A stretch of DNA of 64,000 bases from Hyphomonadaceae bacterium. Its GTDB lineage: Bacteria > Pseudomonadota > Alphaproteobacteria > Caulobacterales > Aquidulcibacteraceae. How positions within the stretch are numbered: position 1 is the stretch's first letter; each line of letters opens with the position of its first letter. A program made the translations under genes and the position numbers. Below, piece after piece: positions 2,145-13,906 of this stretch. The stretch is taken from assembly GCA_019753105.1 (NCBI GenBank), contig JAIELJ010000007.1, positions 183,195-247,194 of the forward strand. Direction: 5' to 3'. The notes beneath the pieces are model-generated. The model did not search any database. It saw nothing but the letters and a program-made list of their open reading frames with translations, and had not been told where the DNA came from.

Positions 2145-3596
2145 CTAGCCCGCGCGCTCTTCGCGCTCCACGGCGATTGGCGCTGCCGCAGCTTGCAGGC
2201 GCTCACGTGCGCCGGTTTGCGTATCGCCGCCATCCACTTCGTCGCCAATATAGTCGGCGATGAGATCGATGACTTCGGGCTGATCGAAATAGGTCGTGTG
2301 GATCAGGCTGCTCCACGTCATCGCGTCGTTGGCGAGATTGGCGAGCGGGCTGTTGGAGTCGGAGCCCACGGTGAACAGTGCCCACCGATAGGTCTCGATG
2401 AGCTGGCTCGCGGCGGTTTGCGCGCCTGCCTGCATGCGCGCCGCAACCTCGCCTTCGATGCAGAGCTCGCGCGTTGCATGCGTGTGCGACGTGGTCCGCA
2501 CTTGCCCGATCGCCTGATCGCCGTCGCGCCCAAAAGCAACGCCGCGCAGAACGCCCGTGATCCAGCGGTTTAGCCGCTGGCGCGCCACGATCTCCGCCAC
2601 CAAGCCGGCAACAAAACGGAACAGGAGATAAGCCAGGGCGAAGATCACAGGCGCAAAGAAGAGTAGCGAGATGGTGGTCAAGAAGAGCCATTCGGAGTTT
2701 GCCCACGGCGCTTCAACGACACCGAACGACTGCGCCAGCACGATGCCAAAAGGCGCGATGCAGGTGAGGATCACAGCGATCACGCCGAAGCTGATCGCGC
2801 TCGCGCGCGAGCCGCGCAGCATCGAGCCGCTGGGGAAGGGCTCTAGCGGCAAGCCTTCGATTTTCTGCAAGAACGAAATGGCTTCGTCATTGCCGTGCCA
2901 TACCGAGAACACCCGCGCACGCGTGTCGTCCAGCCCGCGCGGTCGCATGATGCGGCGTAGTCCTCGTGTGGCGAGTCCCAGCATCAGCCAAAGCGGTACG
3001 CCAACGCCCAGTATGCAGAGCCAAACGGCAAACCAGCTGCCTTCCGTCGGCGGGCCGAACACTTCGTTCATCGTGAAAAGCTCGTCGCGTCCGCTGACCC
3101 AGAGCAGCAGCACGAGACTCGACAGGAGATAAAGCGGAATGCTGATCACAGTGATGGCGAGAAAGAGCAGGCCGCCGAGTGATTGCAGCGCGCTCGTGCT
3201 GCTGTTCAGGAACGGCGTGCCAATCGTGGTGAGGCTCGCGATCGCTTCTTTTGCGCGTTGCTTGCGGCGTCCCCAGCGCAACAACAGCGCCGCATCGTTG
3301 GCGACATTGCCGCCGTGCGAATGGCCTACGACATGCACGCCCGAATAGCGCGGCGCCATGCGCTTGATCGTGGCCGCGAGTTTCTCGGCGCCTTTTTCCC
3401 GCTCAGACGCGCTATTCGCGCCCGACCAAAGAAACGGCACGATCTCAGCTTCAATACCCCGCGCAGCTAAGCGGCTCGTCAGCGCCTGCGAGAAACCAGA
3501 GCCTTGCTGAAACCACTTCTCGCCTTGCAATTCGGCCGCGGTGTCGCCGGTCCCGTGCACCGTGACGACCGCGATCGGTTTGGTTGTATCGCCCAT
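2145..3596 (-). CDS. Membrane-embedded alpha/beta hydrolase
   Basis: The N-terminal ~130 residues form an alpha/beta-hydrolase core. A VVTVHGTGD strand-turn supplies the oxyanion region and VVGHSHGG is the nucleophile elbow, with Ser near residue 93. The rest contains about four hydrophobic segments (roughly 143-168, 190-212, 268-290 and 303-335) and soluble stretches, so the enzyme should sit in the inner membrane. The substrate is unknown; a lipase or esterase role is the simplest reading. I chose ATG 3596 over the GTG six bases upstream because a G-rich Shine-Dalgarno is better spaced from it. Confidence 0.75.
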   Translation of the reverse strand: MGDTTKPIAVVTVHGTGDTAAELQGEKWFQQGSGFSQALTSRLAARGIEAEIVPFLWSGANSASEREKGAEKLAATIKRMAPRYSGVHVVGHSHGGNVANDAALLLRWGRRKQRAKEAIASLTTIGTPFLNSSTSALQSLGGLLFLAITVISIPLYLLSSLVLLLWVSGRDELFTMNEVFGPPTEGSWFAVWLCILGVGVPLWLMLGLATRGLRRIMRPRGLDDTRARVFSVWHGNDEAISFLQKIEGLPLEPFPSGSMLRGSRASAISFGVIAVILTCIAPFGIVLAQSFGVVEAPWANSEWLFLTTISLLFFAPVIFALAYLLFRFVAGLVAEIVARQRLNRWITGVLRGVAFGRDGDQAIGQVRTTSHTHATRELCIEGEVAARMQAGAQTAASQLIETYRWALFTVGSDSNSPLANLANDAMTWSSLIHTTYFDQPEVIDLIADYIGDEVDGGDTQTGARERLQAAAAPIAVEREERAG

Positions 3597-3718
3597 GATC
3601 ACATCCCCCCGGGGCGCACACTACGCGCGCAATCAGGGCCAAGCCATAGGGCGGACGATGCGGCGGCGCTGTAATGGCGATTATTCGCCGGGCTTGCGCC
3701 GCCGTCGGCGCATACGTC

Positions 3719-4498
3719 TCAGCAGCGATTGTTGAGACGCGGCCGGCACGTCGTGCTGCGGCGTTCTTCCGGCTGTCGCGGCTGTGTTGTCGGCGCCGCC
3801 GACGGTTGTGCCGCGGCGCTTTGCGCCGTCTGAGGCAGGATCACGGCGCGGCGTGTGCCTGAAGGCGCGCCGGGCCATGTCACGCCATAGCTCACATAAG
3901 TCTGCACGATCGCAGCATCCAACTCAGCGGCGCGGGCCATATCCGCTTGTGCGTCGGCAGCGCGGCCGAGGTTCAAGGCCGCCAAACCGCGACCGAACAG
4001 ATAATGCGCCGTATCAGGCGCCAAGCGGGCGGCGGCGTCGTAATCGTTCCACGCATTGATCCAGCGGGCTTGCTTCAGTCCGACGAGCCCGCGGCTATCG
4101 AGAAAGTTGTGCTCTCGCTCAAGCTGCAGCGCGCGGTCGCAGGCGCCGCGCGCGATCTCAAGCTCGCGACCTGCAACGGCCCGATGCCAGCAGCGATCAT
4201 TTTGATAGTCTGCATTCTGCGGTGCGAGCTGCGCCGCTTGATCCGCATCTGGGATCGCGCGCGCGTAATCGCCTTGCTCGGCAAAAGCGTTGGCGCGATT
4301 GTTGAACGCCAGCGCGACGTATTCTGCGGGTTCACTGCCGGACTGAATGACTGCTGTGCAGCCGCTGATCTGCAAATCCAGCGCAACCGCGCCATCCGCG
4401 TTTTCACAGAAACTACGCTGCTGAGCGTGATCTTGCGCCAGCGCCTCGGGCGCTCCCATCACCACCGTCAGGACCGCCGCCAAAAACAATGTGCGCAA
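3719..4498 (-). CDS. Exported TPR-repeat protein
   Basis: Starting at TTG 4498 gives a 259-residue protein with a clean signal peptide (LRTLFLAAVLTVVMG..., ending ALAQ). A GGGAGG Shine-Dalgarno lies 6 bases upstream; the longer frame back to 4657 has a non-signal-like extension. About three tetratricopeptide repeats follow (for example AFNNRANAFAEQGDYARAI), then a low-complexity Ala/Pro/Gln tail. It is probably a periplasmic scaffold with an unknown partner. It is divergent from the TIR gene, across a 310-base gap, so the two may share control. Confidence 0.7.
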   Translation of the reverse strand: MRTLFLAAVLTVVMGAPEALAQDHAQQRSFCENADGAVALDLQISGCTAVIQSGSEPAEYVALAFNNRANAFAEQGDYARAIPDADQAAQLAPQNADYQNDRCWHRAVAGRELEIARGACDRALQLEREHNFLDSRGLVGLKQARWINAWNDYDAAARLAPDTAHYLFGRGLAALNLGRAADAQADMARAAELDAAIVQTYVSYGVTWPGAPSGTRRAVILPQTAQSAAAQPSAAPTTQPRQPEERRSTTCRPRLNNRC

Positions 4499-4808
4499 GA
4501 GCACCCTCCCATTCACCCCTAACAACCCTAGAACGAAGACCCCGCAGCGCGGAAGTGGCGAAAAGAGGCTTGGCTCATCCGTTGGCGTCAAGCGCCGCCC
4601 GTCACGTCGCGCGCGAACCTCGTTCGTCACGGACGCCAGCGCTTGCCGAAGCGCCATCTCTTTGTGTTTCCGAGAAAATTTCTAATCTTCACGGAGTTTT
4701 GGGCCAAATGGCGTTGGCCTCATCTTCCCGTCCCGTTCAGCAACGCCTAATGAAGAGCCTGGGACAAGCAAAAGGCGGCGCGAGAACACGCGCCGAGCAG
4801 GGGCTTTC
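4499..4808. promoter_or_regulatory. Divergent intergenic region between TPR and TIR genes
   Basis: This 310-base gap should hold the promoters of both flanking genes. Visible elements are an AT-rich patch with a small palindrome (AGAAAATTTCT, 4673-4683) and a GC hairpin (GGCGCG 4777-4782 with CGCGCC 4789-4794). The hairpin sits directly before the AGGGG ribosome binding site of the TIR gene and could affect its translation. I cannot assign -35/-10 boxes with confidence. Confidence 0.4.
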
Positions 4809-6362
4809 ATGGCCGACATCTTCATTTCATACGCCAGCGAAGATCGCGCCCGCGTGCGCCCCTTGGCCGAAGCTTTGATGACGCGTGGTTTCAACGTCTG
4901 GTGGGATCGCTCTCTTGCGGCCGGCCAGGACTATACCGCGATCATCGAGCGTGAACTGAAGAACGCCAAAGCCGTCATCGTCGTCTGGACGCAAAGCTCC
5001 GCGAGTTCGACCTTCGTGCGCGATGAGGCCGGCCGTGCGCGCGATGACGGACGATTGGTGCCGGTCACGCTCGATCGCATCGACATTCCGCTCGGCTTCG
5101 GCGCCTTCCAGGCGGAAGACTTCACTCGCTGGAACGGCGGCTCGAATGCGCCGCAAGTGCTATTGCTCGAAGAAGTGCTGAACGCCAAGCTGCAAGGCCG
5201 CAACATTGACGGCACCGCGATCGAAAAGCGCCGCCGCCGTTTGGGTGCGCGCATTCGTTTGGTGTCTGTGCTCACCGTGATCGCGCTCGTCATCGGCATC
5301 GCCGCAGGCGGCCGGTACATTTTCAATCCGCCAGACACCGAGGTGACGCAAGAAGATTTGCGCGCTGAGTTGTTGCGTTTGCTCGCTGAGGGTCAGTTGA
5401 CGCCCGAACAGGCGATCACGCTTGCGCAGCTCTTGGAAGCCGGCGCGCTGGGTGAAAGCCAGAGCGCCGCTCTGCAAACGCCAGACAGCGCAGCACCGTC
5501 GCCAGGCGCCGAAACACGCACGGCCGATGAACCTGGCATGGTTTCGCCGGCGTCGTTTGAGGCTGACGCGAGCCAGGCTTACCAAGCCGCCTTCATCGCG
5601 CTCGCGGCGCACCCGGCTTCGGAAGTCCGCATCGCAGTGGCGCAAATGGCCAATGACGGAACACGTCAGGCCGCAATGCAGACGCTTTGGAACTACGCTC
5701 AAGCAAACCCGGAAGATCTGCTGCGCGAGCAAATCTATCTGCTCTGCGGCTCGGTCGGCGAAGCCAATGACGATCCGCTCGGCCAGCGCGCCCTCGAGCA
5801 AGCCGCCAACCTGCAACCGCGTGATCCGCGCGTATGGCGCATGCTCTCGCGTTCGTACGAGCGTGTGAACCGCGACGGCGAAGCGCGCGCCGCGGCGCAA
5901 GTTTCCGAAGGTGTCGCGGCGCAAGCCACGGGTGACACCGCTGCCGCTGAACAGCAATTGCAAAACGCGCTGCCGCAACTCAACGCCACGGTCGCTGCCC
6001 CCGTCGCCTCCGAGCTTGGCGATATCGCGGTGCGACGCGAAGACTGGACAGGCGCCTCAGCACGCTACGAGCGCGCGTACCGCTTGCGTGAGCAATCCGC
6101 TGAAGCCGCCCCAAACTCTGCTGCCGCAGCCGAGATCGACGCGGACGCTCAGCAATTGGTGATCGCGCTCGATCGTTCCGGCCGCACGCGCGAAGCCTGC
6201 GAGCGTCTGCAGCAGGCGCAGACCGAACACGATACGGCAGCGCCGGATCAGGAATTGCTCGAACGCTGCCAACGCTTGCGCGTGCAATTGCGCTCGGACG
6301 TGCTGCTTGCTCCGCAAGTTCGCGATAACTCGCAAATCCTACGACCGCGCGCGACGCCGTAA
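4809..6362 (+). CDS. TIR domain - transmembrane - helical/TPR-like repeat protein
   Basis: The 517-residue protein begins with a bacterial TIR domain (about 3-125): IFISYASEDR opens it, WWD occurs at 31-33, and FVRDE holds Glu73 at the position of the NADase glutamate in catalytically active TIR domains. A basic cluster (KRRRR, 140-144) precedes one hydrophobic segment (about 151-170), which would leave the TIR domain in the cytosol. The remainder is Ala/Gln/Glu-rich and helical with TPR-like repeats (about 250-500), predicted periplasmic. TIR proteins can be NAD hydrolases or adaptors; which applies here is not shown. It is a single gene, convergent to rsmD. Confidence 0.85.
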   Translation: MADIFISYASEDRARVRPLAEALMTRGFNVWWDRSLAAGQDYTAIIERELKNAKAVIVVWTQSSASSTFVRDEAGRARDDGRLVPVTLDRIDIPLGFGAFQAEDFTRWNGGSNAPQVLLLEEVLNAKLQGRNIDGTAIEKRRRRLGARIRLVSVLTVIALVIGIAAGGRYIFNPPDTEVTQEDLRAELLRLLAEGQLTPEQAITLAQLLEAGALGESQSAALQTPDSAAPSPGAETRTADEPGMVSPASFEADASQAYQAAFIALAAHPASEVRIAVAQMANDGTRQAAMQTLWNYAQANPEDLLREQIYLLCGSVGEANDDPLGQRALEQAANLQPRDPRVWRMLSRSYERVNRDGEARAAAQVSEGVAAQATGDTAAAEQQLQNALPQLNATVAAPVASELGDIAVRREDWTGASARYERAYRLREQSAEAAPNSAAAAEIDADAQQLVIALDRSGRTREACERLQQAQTEHDTAAPDQELLERCQRLRVQLRSDVLLAPQVRDNSQILRPRATP

Positions 6363-6367
6363 ATCTT

Positions 6368-6450
6368 GGACCGGCGTCCTCGCCGGCATCTATTGCAAAC
6401 ACGCGGACCGTCGCGTCAGGACTAGGCGCTCATGCCGGCGAGGACGCCGG
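6368..6450. repeat. REP-like inverted repeat overlapping the rsmD 3' end
   Basis: A perfect 19-base inverted repeat pairs 6371-6389 (CCGGCGTCCTCGCCGGCAT) with 6432-6450, separated by a 42-base spacer. The right arm lies inside the rsmD reading frame and encodes part of its last residues, up to the stop at 6430-6432. The element may also terminate the convergent TIR and rsmD transcripts. Confidence 0.8.
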
Positions 6451-7005
6451 CGGTCGGAGGAATAGCACCTTCGCCGCCCCGTACTCGCGTGTATCGAGCG
6501 TCTCGAACGCACTCACGTCCGGCGTTTCATCAGCCGCGCACTCGAAGACGATGAGCGCGTCATCGGTGATCCATTGGCCCTCCCGCAGCCGCGAGATGGC
6601 CTTTTCGCCCAGACCTTTGTGATAGGGCGGGTCAAGGAAGACGAGGTCGAACGGATCGCCAAGCCCCGCTGGCTTCAAGCCCAGGTCGGTGGCGTCGCGG
6701 CGATGAATGCGGGTGTTTCCGAAGAGACCCAGTGCTTCGATATTATCCCGGATGGCCCCCCGCGCAGCCGCTTCGGTCTCGACAAAGAGCGCAAACGAGG
6801 CCCCGCGCGACATCGCCTCGAGCCCAAGAGCGCCAGAGCCGGCAAAGAGATCCAGCACCCGGCGCCCCGCGATACCAGCACTCCAGGGCGCATGCGCCAG
6901 GATGTTGAACACGGCTTCCCGCGCGCGATCGCCCGTCGGGCGCGTATCGCGACCCTGAGGGGCTGCAATCGCCCGGCCTTTGAATTGTCCGCCTACAATG
7001 CGCAT
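6430..7005 (-). CDS. rsmD: 16S rRNA (guanine966-N2)-methyltransferase RsmD
   Basis: RsmD methylates G966 of 16S rRNA in the small ribosomal subunit using S-adenosylmethionine. The 191-residue product has the family start (MRIVGGQFKGR), the SAM-binding motif VLDLFAGSGALGLEA (50-64) and the catalytic DPPY tetrad at 125-128. Length is typical. The C-terminal tail (RPPASSPA) is encoded by one arm of an inverted repeat, so the natural end may have been replaced. In many alphaproteobacteria rsmD follows rluB; here terC lies between them on the other strand. Confidence 0.95.
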   Translation of the reverse strand: MRIVGGQFKGRAIAAPQGRDTRPTGDRAREAVFNILAHAPWSAGIAGRRVLDLFAGSGALGLEAMSRGASFALFVETEAAARGAIRDNIEALGLFGNTRIHRRDATDLGLKPAGLGDPFDLVFLDPPYHKGLGEKAISRLREGQWITDDALIVFECAADETPDVSAFETLDTREYGAAKVLFLRPPASSPA

Positions 7006-12970: not shown

Positions 12971-13906
12971 ATGCGGCGCTTGATTTTGGCTGGTTTGATT
13001 GCGGTGGCAGGCTTGGCCGCGTGCGAGCGCCGTGCGGCTGATCCTATGGCGCAAAACCGTGACGTGTGTGCGGATAATGACCGCGAATCCGCTGAACGCG
13101 TCGCGGCCTGTTCTGCGCTGATCGATAGCGGTGAACTGGACGAAGCGGCGCGTGCGGAGGCGCAGGCACATCGTGGTTCGGCGTATCGCGAAGCGGGGCA
13201 GGTGACGCCCGCGTTGCGCGATTTCGAAGCTGTGCTGCGCGTGAACGAGGGCAACGCGGAAGCTTTGGCGGGGCGGGCGTACATCTTGGTCGCGAGCGGG
13301 CAGCTCGATGCCGCTGAGGTGTTCGTCGGGCGCTTGTCTGAAACAGGCGAACGGGCCGCGGATGCGCATTTCCTGACTGGCGAAATCGCCCAAGCGCGCG
13401 GCGATCACGCGTCCGCCTTGGCAAGCTATAGCGCCGCCATCGAGGCGGACCGCGACATGGCGATCGCCTATGCGCGGCGCGGGCGCGCCAAGCAGGCGAT
13501 GGACATGATCGATGAAGCCCTCGGCGATTTCGACGCGGCGCTGAACCGCGATGCGAGCCTGGTCGATGCCCGTGCTGGCCGCTGCTGGCTGAGCTTGCAG
13601 CAAGAGCGCGATCTTACCCGGGCGCGCTCTGATGCTGAGACAGCGGTCGCGGCGGCGCCGAACAATGTCGAAGCGCAGCTGTGCCGCGGCATTTTACAAT
13701 TGCGCGGCGAAGAATGGACGCAGGCGAAATCGTCATTCGAAGCGGCGCTTGAAGTCGAGCCCGGCAATCCTGTCGGCCTGTTCGGACGCGGCGTTGCGCG
13801 GCGGCGTTCGGGCGATAGCGATGGGCGCGAGGACATGAACCAGGCGCGCGATTTCGATCGGCATATCGGCGAGCGGTTCGATGACTGGGGTGTGCGAACG
13901 TTTTAG
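12971..13906 (+). CDS. TPR-repeat lipoprotein
   Basis: The 311-residue protein has a lipoprotein signal (VAGLAAC, Cys18 as the lipidated residue) and then at least six tetratricopeptide-like repeats through to the end (for example HRGSAYREAGQVTPALRDFEAVL, given here in part as AYREAGQ). It should sit in the periplasm attached to a membrane and act as a protein-interaction scaffold. No enzyme domain is visible. Its end overlaps the convergent HAD gene by four bases. Confidence 0.82.
   Translation: MRRLILAGLIAVAGLAACERRAADPMAQNRDVCADNDRESAERVAACSALIDSGELDEAARAEAQAHRGSAYREAGQVTPALRDFEAVLRVNEGNAEALAGRAYILVASGQLDAAEVFVGRLSETGERAADAHFLTGEIAQARGDHASALASYSAAIEADRDMAIAYARRGRAKQAMDMIDEALGDFDAALNRDASLVDARAGRCWLSLQQERDLTRARSDAETAVAAAPNNVEAQLCRGILQLRGEEWTQAKSSFEAALEVEPGNPVGLFGRGVARRRSGDSDGREDMNQARDFDRHIGERFDDWGVRTF

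Follow-up and report, generated by a model that had tools for sequence, protein, structure and literature searches.

A TIR domain joined through one membrane helix to a predicted periplasmic TPR-type domain: a candidate receptor-enzyme in Caulobacterales

We found that a 517-residue protein encoded in the window (the whole 64,000-nucleotide stretch of DNA analysed here) joins an N-terminal TIR domain, a single membrane helix and a C-terminal repeat domain, and we propose, with moderate confidence, that it is a single-pass inner-membrane receptor-enzyme whose TPR domain, in the periplasm, controls a TIR NADase in the cytosol. Many of the bacterial TIR enzymes studied so far are soluble or depend on partners; if the proposal is true, bacteria couple extracytoplasmic events to NAD-based signalling, and this gene offers a simple one-gene system for how a transmembrane signal switches on a TIR domain. 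The first-pass annotation of this DNA had described a TIR domain fused to one membrane segment and a repeat domain, a layout confirmed by the Pfam TIR_2 match, the hydrophobic helix at residues 149-167 and the fold of the C-terminal part. The gene, its parts and two neighbours lie as follows.

4809..6362, plus strand: the TIR-TM-TPR gene, 517 aa, ATG start
4809..5192, plus strand: TIR domain, predicted cytosolic, residues 1-128 (Pfam TIR_2 and VIA fold matches)
5025..5027, plus strand: codon (GAG) of Glu73, the predicted catalytic glutamate (alignment with AbTir E208)
5253..5324, plus strand: transmembrane helix region, residues 149-172, with KRRRRLGAR just before it (Kyte-Doolittle)
5349..5450, plus strand: conserved juxtamembrane helix pair, DLRAELLRLLAEGQLTPEQAI, residues 181-214 (AF2 helices 181-193 and 199-214)
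5454..5543, plus strand: variable linker rich in Pro, Ala and Ser, residues 216-245 (low identity, low pLDDT)
5547..6278, plus strand: TPR-type superhelix, predicted periplasmic, residues 247-490 (AF2 and Foldseek)
6198..6200, plus strand: codon of Cys464, predicted disulphide partner of Cys487 (co-variation in 33 distinct homologues)
6267..6269, plus strand: codon of Cys487, predicted disulphide partner of Cys464 (co-variation in 33 distinct homologues)
6430..7005, minus strand: RsmD-like methyltransferase, convergent conserved neighbour (Pfam Cons_hypoth95, E 1e-53)
3719..4657, minus strand: exported TPR protein, once proposed as a partner and judged not to be a part of the system (tblastn and a search of relatives)

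Residues 4-108 matched TIR_2 with an E-value of 9.8e-22 (78.2 bits against a cut-off of 28), and the modelled fold superposed on Hydra TRR-2 (4w8g; VIA Z 16.6, rmsd 2.7, 122 residues aligned), a SPARTA TIR domain (Z 15.1), SARM1 (Z 14.4) and AbTir, a TIR NADase of Acinetobacter (7uxu_A; Z 13.8, rmsd 2.4, 122 residues aligned, 27% identity). According to the available text of two studies, E208 is the catalytic glutamate of AbTir (PMC10022894), its NADase activity is inhibited by changing S140, R151, D167, V193, W204 or E208, and the conserved glutamate of bacterial TIR NADases belongs to a WxxxE motif in the C-helix (PMC11374754). We mapped the active site by aligning to AbTir a profile built from 15 TIR domains, some of this family and some of other TIR proteins: Glu73 falls on position 78 of chain 7uwg, which is E208 by the numbering of the entry. 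Read by hand from the alignment, the six AbTir residues correspond to S7, R17, D33, V58, F69 and E73; besides Glu73, four of the five are identical and the fifth is a Trp-to-Phe change. These six are the sites within the aligned stretch, with AbTir R215 and Y238 falling past it. Among 33 distinct homologues the serine, arginine, valine and glutamate are invariant, the aspartate is kept in 32 (Asn in one), and the position equivalent to W204 is Phe in 26, Trp in six and Leu in one. The earlier claim of a bacterial TIR domain with the glutamate needed for NAD hydrolysis is thus backed by the fold and by the alignment of Glu73 to E208, and loss of this residue across the family was not seen. Homology argues fairly strongly that the TIR domain would be an NADase.

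The protein contains one hydrophobic segment only (residues 149-167; Kyte-Doolittle mean 2.36), and all 33 distinct homologues have the helix (best 19-residue mean 1.89-2.60); relatives without a membrane segment, which the first-pass annotation had named as a finding that would count against it, did not appear. The 15 residues before the helix carry a mean net charge of +4.67 in these homologues and the 15 after it one of -0.52. Cysteines number two per 4620 TIR residues against 98 per 11567 post-helix residues, and the pair C464 and C487 is complete in 29 homologues, absent altogether in three and reduced to a single cysteine in one. The charge bias and the cysteine pattern together point to a periplasmic location of the C-terminal domain, as had been suggested when it was predicted to lie outside the cytosol; a cytosolic TIR domain and a periplasmic, disulphide-bearing C-terminal domain are strongly predicted.

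Pfam TPR models gave only sub-threshold matches to the C-terminal part. Because TIR matches filled the VIA list of the whole model, we folded and searched this domain alone: residues 247-490 (AF2, 16 sequences) gave a model of 13 helices with pLDDT 94 and pTM 0.89, whose best Foldseek match was the consensus TPR superhelix 8chy (E 4.2e-4, with a TM-score of only 0.38; TM-scores were low throughout, 0.24-0.42 by query). The best VIA Z was 11.4, a value that in helical repeats may reflect shared arrangement only. From its model, the domain is probably of TPR type, and we claim no assignment to a specific TPR family. Mean identity in the 33 distinct homologues is 52% in this domain against 80% in the TIR domain, and such greater variability is expected if the C-terminal domain is the sensing part.

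The remaining parts of the protein are less well modelled. The juxtamembrane pair at residues 181-214 resembles SHOCT in Pfam below the cut-off (E 0.033), and the linker at 216-245 has a mean pairwise identity of 26%, with pLDDT below 50 at 217-241. In the full-length AF2 model the TIR domain is fair (block means 58-86), and pLDDT falls below 50 at residues 132-179, which include the membrane helix.

We also followed the C-terminal domain on its own, using a profile that contains neither TIR nor helix. At a cut-off of 1e-5, and scoring the best eight candidates per genome, it matched in 30 of 249 genomes of the order, one of these matches (G033) being weak and of TPR only (E 9.1e-6). Across 385 genomes of the class, which sample few members of the family, our own genome alone matched at 1e-8 among the best five candidates each. 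Nine matches from outside the genus (E <1e-40) were chosen by this profile alone, and in all nine a single ORF encodes TIR and helix as well. We had considered a swappable N-terminus and rejected it, as no ORF among those read pairs the C-terminal module with another N-terminal domain; the module appears to occur only with TIR. The combination of TIR, helix and C-terminal domain recurs in 33 distinct homologues, down to 38% identity (best tblastn stretch), and is, to judge by this conservation, more than chance.

In the genus (30 genomes, including our own) the gene is present in 24, as one open frame in 23 and as two frames in G023, and six genomes have no full-length match. In three of those six (G008, G021 and G012) the place beside rsmD is readable and holds no TIR gene, although these genomes still have 13, 23 and 13 TIR matches, respectively; in G003, G025 and G028 the contig ends at the locus, so absence there cannot be judged. 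Ten further genomes of the same family but outside the genus carry the gene (G036 and nine more), and the relatives that bear names are Hyphomonadaceae, Caulobacterales and Alphaproteobacteria MAGs. Homologues are 466-556 aa long. Lengths and dN/dS were taken from 34 rows that include one duplicate (L054 = L129), residue counts from the 33 distinct sequences; the family alignments exclude L034 and the split G023 gene (L033, L055), and L115 (from G033) was dropped. The gene is, to judge by its codons, under purifying selection, with dN/dS of 0.06-0.10 in the TIR part and 0.16-0.23 in the C-terminal part (three pairs, dS 0.7-1.5). The distribution in genus and family, together with the recurrent rsmD neighbourhood, indicates that it is an old chromosomal resident, mostly vertically inherited and sporadically lost. 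The three readable places without it and the split in G023 indicate that it is dispensable. G023 is a complete genome (CP096134.1, ~1253855-1255404), and its two frames overlap, reflecting either decay or a sequencing error.

The surroundings of the gene are conserved and consist of housekeeping genes, namely 2-oxoacid dehydrogenase E2, RsmD, TerC, a pseudouridine synthase and a deaminase; Pfam matches on the neighbours were to E2 acyltransferase, S4/pseudouridine synthase, deaminase, MaoC, FAD synthetase/riboflavin kinase and receiver domains. Of 23 distinct genomes, 22 have rsmD within the fetched neighbourhood, with terC, an rluB-like gene and tadA usually coming after it, and rsmD is also present at seven of the nine loci from outside the genus, one of which is among the 23 as well (its orientation differs in L131). 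At three loci (L044, L049 and L052) a further ORF of 685-698 aa separates the TIR gene from rsmD; the one that was scanned, in L044, is an amidohydrolase by Pfam. With a divergent gene upstream and the convergent rsmD downstream, the TIR-TM-TPR gene is probably transcribed alone, and we do not think that the RsmD-like neighbour shares a function with it.

The first-pass annotation had noted that no Thoeris or pAgo partner adjoins the gene, and this holds: the neighbours are housekeeping genes and include no ThsA effector gene, and the genome has no Piwi domain (the control search was positive in one of 14 genomes, Methanocaldococcus jannaschii). A STALD search of the genome for ThsA-like effectors found no match, but the controls gave none either; the genome carries one Macro-domain ORF, of 190 aa. 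The same annotation had put forward the exported TPR protein at 3719-4657 as a partner, and this proposal failed, as it lies beside the TIR gene at none of 23 homologous loci. tblastn at 1e-8 with the default low-complexity filter gave no match to it at 30 loci from 23 distinct genomes, of which L047, with a mere 352 bases of upstream sequence, is uninformative. Among the matches listed from 60 relatives none was full-length, and the best scored 161 bits, with 57% identity over 151 residues of the TPR core, against 685 bits for the protein itself. In at least 15 genomes of the genus such a TPR-core match is located 6-10 kb downstream of the TIR gene, a place occupied in our own genome by another exported TPR gene at 12971-13906. 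This recurrence shows synteny more than partnership, since the block between the two genes is housekeeping; a partner farther off is possible. The protein at 12971-13906 (plus strand) has a start that looks like a lipoprotein signal (AACERR). On the other side, 2145-3602 (minus strand) encodes a predicted protein whose N-terminus resembles an alpha/beta-hydrolase below Pfam cut-offs; L040 alone among the 23 genomes has it close to the TIR gene. The TIR-TM-TPR protein probably acts alone or with other TIR proteins.

In the mechanism that we propose, a cytosolic TIR domain able to cleave NAD would be held inactive or weakly active until a protein or peptide that signals the state of the envelope docks on the TPR superhelix in the periplasm. 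Binding would alter the packing of receptors in the membrane and bring TIR domains into contact, and the NAD site would assemble near the TIR-TIR interface, as it does in ligand-bound AbTir according to the available text of PMC11374754. The assembled site might then convert NAD into ADP-ribose or into a cyclic isomer, with low output serving as a second messenger and high output arresting the cell. Ligand control and output are the steps that we suggest only weakly. Several points count against the receptor reading: the position of W204 is Phe in this protein, as in most homologues; TPR domains are often plain scaffolds; the gene is dispensable; the model is fair in the TIR domain and poor at the membrane helix; and the second exported TPR gene leaves room for a more distant partner.

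Anti-phage abortive infection is a possible but less probable role. The periplasmic domain, or the anchor, would sense phage entry or envelope damage, and loss of NAD would halt the cell before phage release. Many of the TIR NADases described from bacteria serve in phage defence, as the abstracts on SpbK and Thoeris indicate, TIR genes are numerous in this clade, and PADLOC models match the protein with a best E of 5e-12. These matches are, however, limited to residues 2-107, in the TIR part; among nine neighbouring proteins PADLOC matched only the RsmD-like and TadA-like ones, partially and generically, and the housekeeping neighbourhood is fixed across several genera. The fixed locus, the long inheritance and the lack of an adjacent partner favour a resident sensor, and the gene looks more like a resident envelope sensor than like a passing defence gene.

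The TIR-TM-TPR protein is far from being the only TIR protein of its cell. Our own genome has 16 TIR_2 matches, 14 of them above the cut-off, in 15 ORFs (L060-L072 and the gene in the window), seven of which have a membrane segment (Kyte-Doolittle mean >=1.6 after residue 110); membrane attachment, which had been presented as the distinguishing trait of this protein, was therefore overstated. For each of these ORFs the start closest to the match on its upstream side was used, which leaves some N-termini uncertain. The residue equivalent to Glu73 is Glu in 13 of the 16 copies. Across 101 genomes, with medians worked by hand, TIR matches number 7-25 per genome in the genus (median 16; 30 genomes), 0-21 in other genera of the family (median 2; 30 genomes) and 0-19 in other families of the order (median 2; 41 genomes). 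With 7-25 TIR genes per genome, the genus is a good place to seek bacterial TIR networks.

This repertoire bears on an unlikely alternative in which the TIR domain serves as a scaffold: much as Toll signalling does in animals, it would work by contact with further TIR proteins of the cell and bring in a soluble TIR enzyme. The number of TIR copies in the genome and genus, the co-occurrence of soluble and membrane TIR proteins and an ORF in which two TIR domains flank membrane segments are all consistent with it, and against it stand the AbTir-type catalytic residues, Glu73 above all, which are kept throughout the family and which a pure scaffold would not need. That the TPR domain instead organises a periplasmic assembly, with TIR as a secondary tail, is very improbable: the common role of TPR superhelices as scaffolds and a weak match to MamA (E 4.8e-4; 19.6 bits against a cut-off of 200) speak for it, and the most conserved part of the protein is the TIR domain and not the TPR domain.

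Returning to the receptor-enzyme reading, the architecture appears to be a variant of known bacterial TIR enzymes, and the anatomy and enzyme prediction of the first-pass annotation seem sound at the level of sequence and structural model. The likeness to AbTir (PDB 7uxu, 7uwg, 8g83) lies in the TIR fold, the catalytic glutamate and the four further identical residues; the comparison concerns TIR only, as the domain here precedes a membrane helix and TPR. Thoeris ThsB shares the TIR domain but acts with ThsA, which is absent beside the gene here, and SPARTA TIR-APAZ shares it (Z about 15) but acts with a pAgo, likewise absent. Group 6 of a survey of TIR proteins also has TIR first and TPRs after it at the C-terminus; in the available part of that survey (PMC7075850), the group is mainly actinobacterial and often exceeds 700 aa, a size that our 517-aa protein does not reach, and no membrane helix is mentioned, whereas one is present here. 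Animal Toll-like and Toll-related receptors share a cytosolic TIR domain, one membrane helix between TIR and ectodomain and a repeat domain outside, a topology that is predicted for our protein; they differ in having an LRR ectodomain where ours is of TPR type, and in their opposite domain order, as given in the same part of PMC7075850. Nothing indicates that the protein as a whole shares an ancestor with animal Toll-like receptors, among which the fold match is to Hydra TRR-2 (4w8g). Open-licence PMC titles and abstract openings contained, as a weak negative, no description of a bacterial TIR-TM-TPR protein or of the TIR genes of this lineage. More tentatively, the protein may be a vertically inherited receptor of Toll-like layout, one of about 16 TIRs per cell (many membrane-bound, with varied outer modules), that serves envelope physiology and not only phage defence.

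Several other TIR proteins place membrane segments after the TIR domain. A Bradyrhizobium protein (L058, TIR-TM-WD40) has TIR and then a membrane segment, as here, with a different C-terminal module, and another TIR-TM-TPR protein (L034) has the same three elements with a different middle region. In our own genome, tandem TIR genes at L060:2986-4998 encode a TIR-DUF805 protein, in which TIR is followed by four membrane segments and another C-terminal module, and a TIR protein that has a single segment and a C-terminal domain of no assigned family; pairs of neighbouring TIR matches, spaced by about 1 kb, are seen again in many genomes of the genus. L066:2045-3202 (minus strand) encodes TIR, a borderline membrane segment (Kyte-Doolittle 1.50) and SH3_3 domains, again a C-terminal module unlike that of our protein and another possible envelope sensor. 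The ORF with two TIR domains is L062:2605-3729, with two membrane segments between them and, at the position of Glu73, Arg in the first TIR and Glu in the second. Finally, L068:2692-3963 fuses TIR to a ParA/MinD-type ATPase (AAA_31, E 8.7e-24; MipZ, E 1.6e-8).
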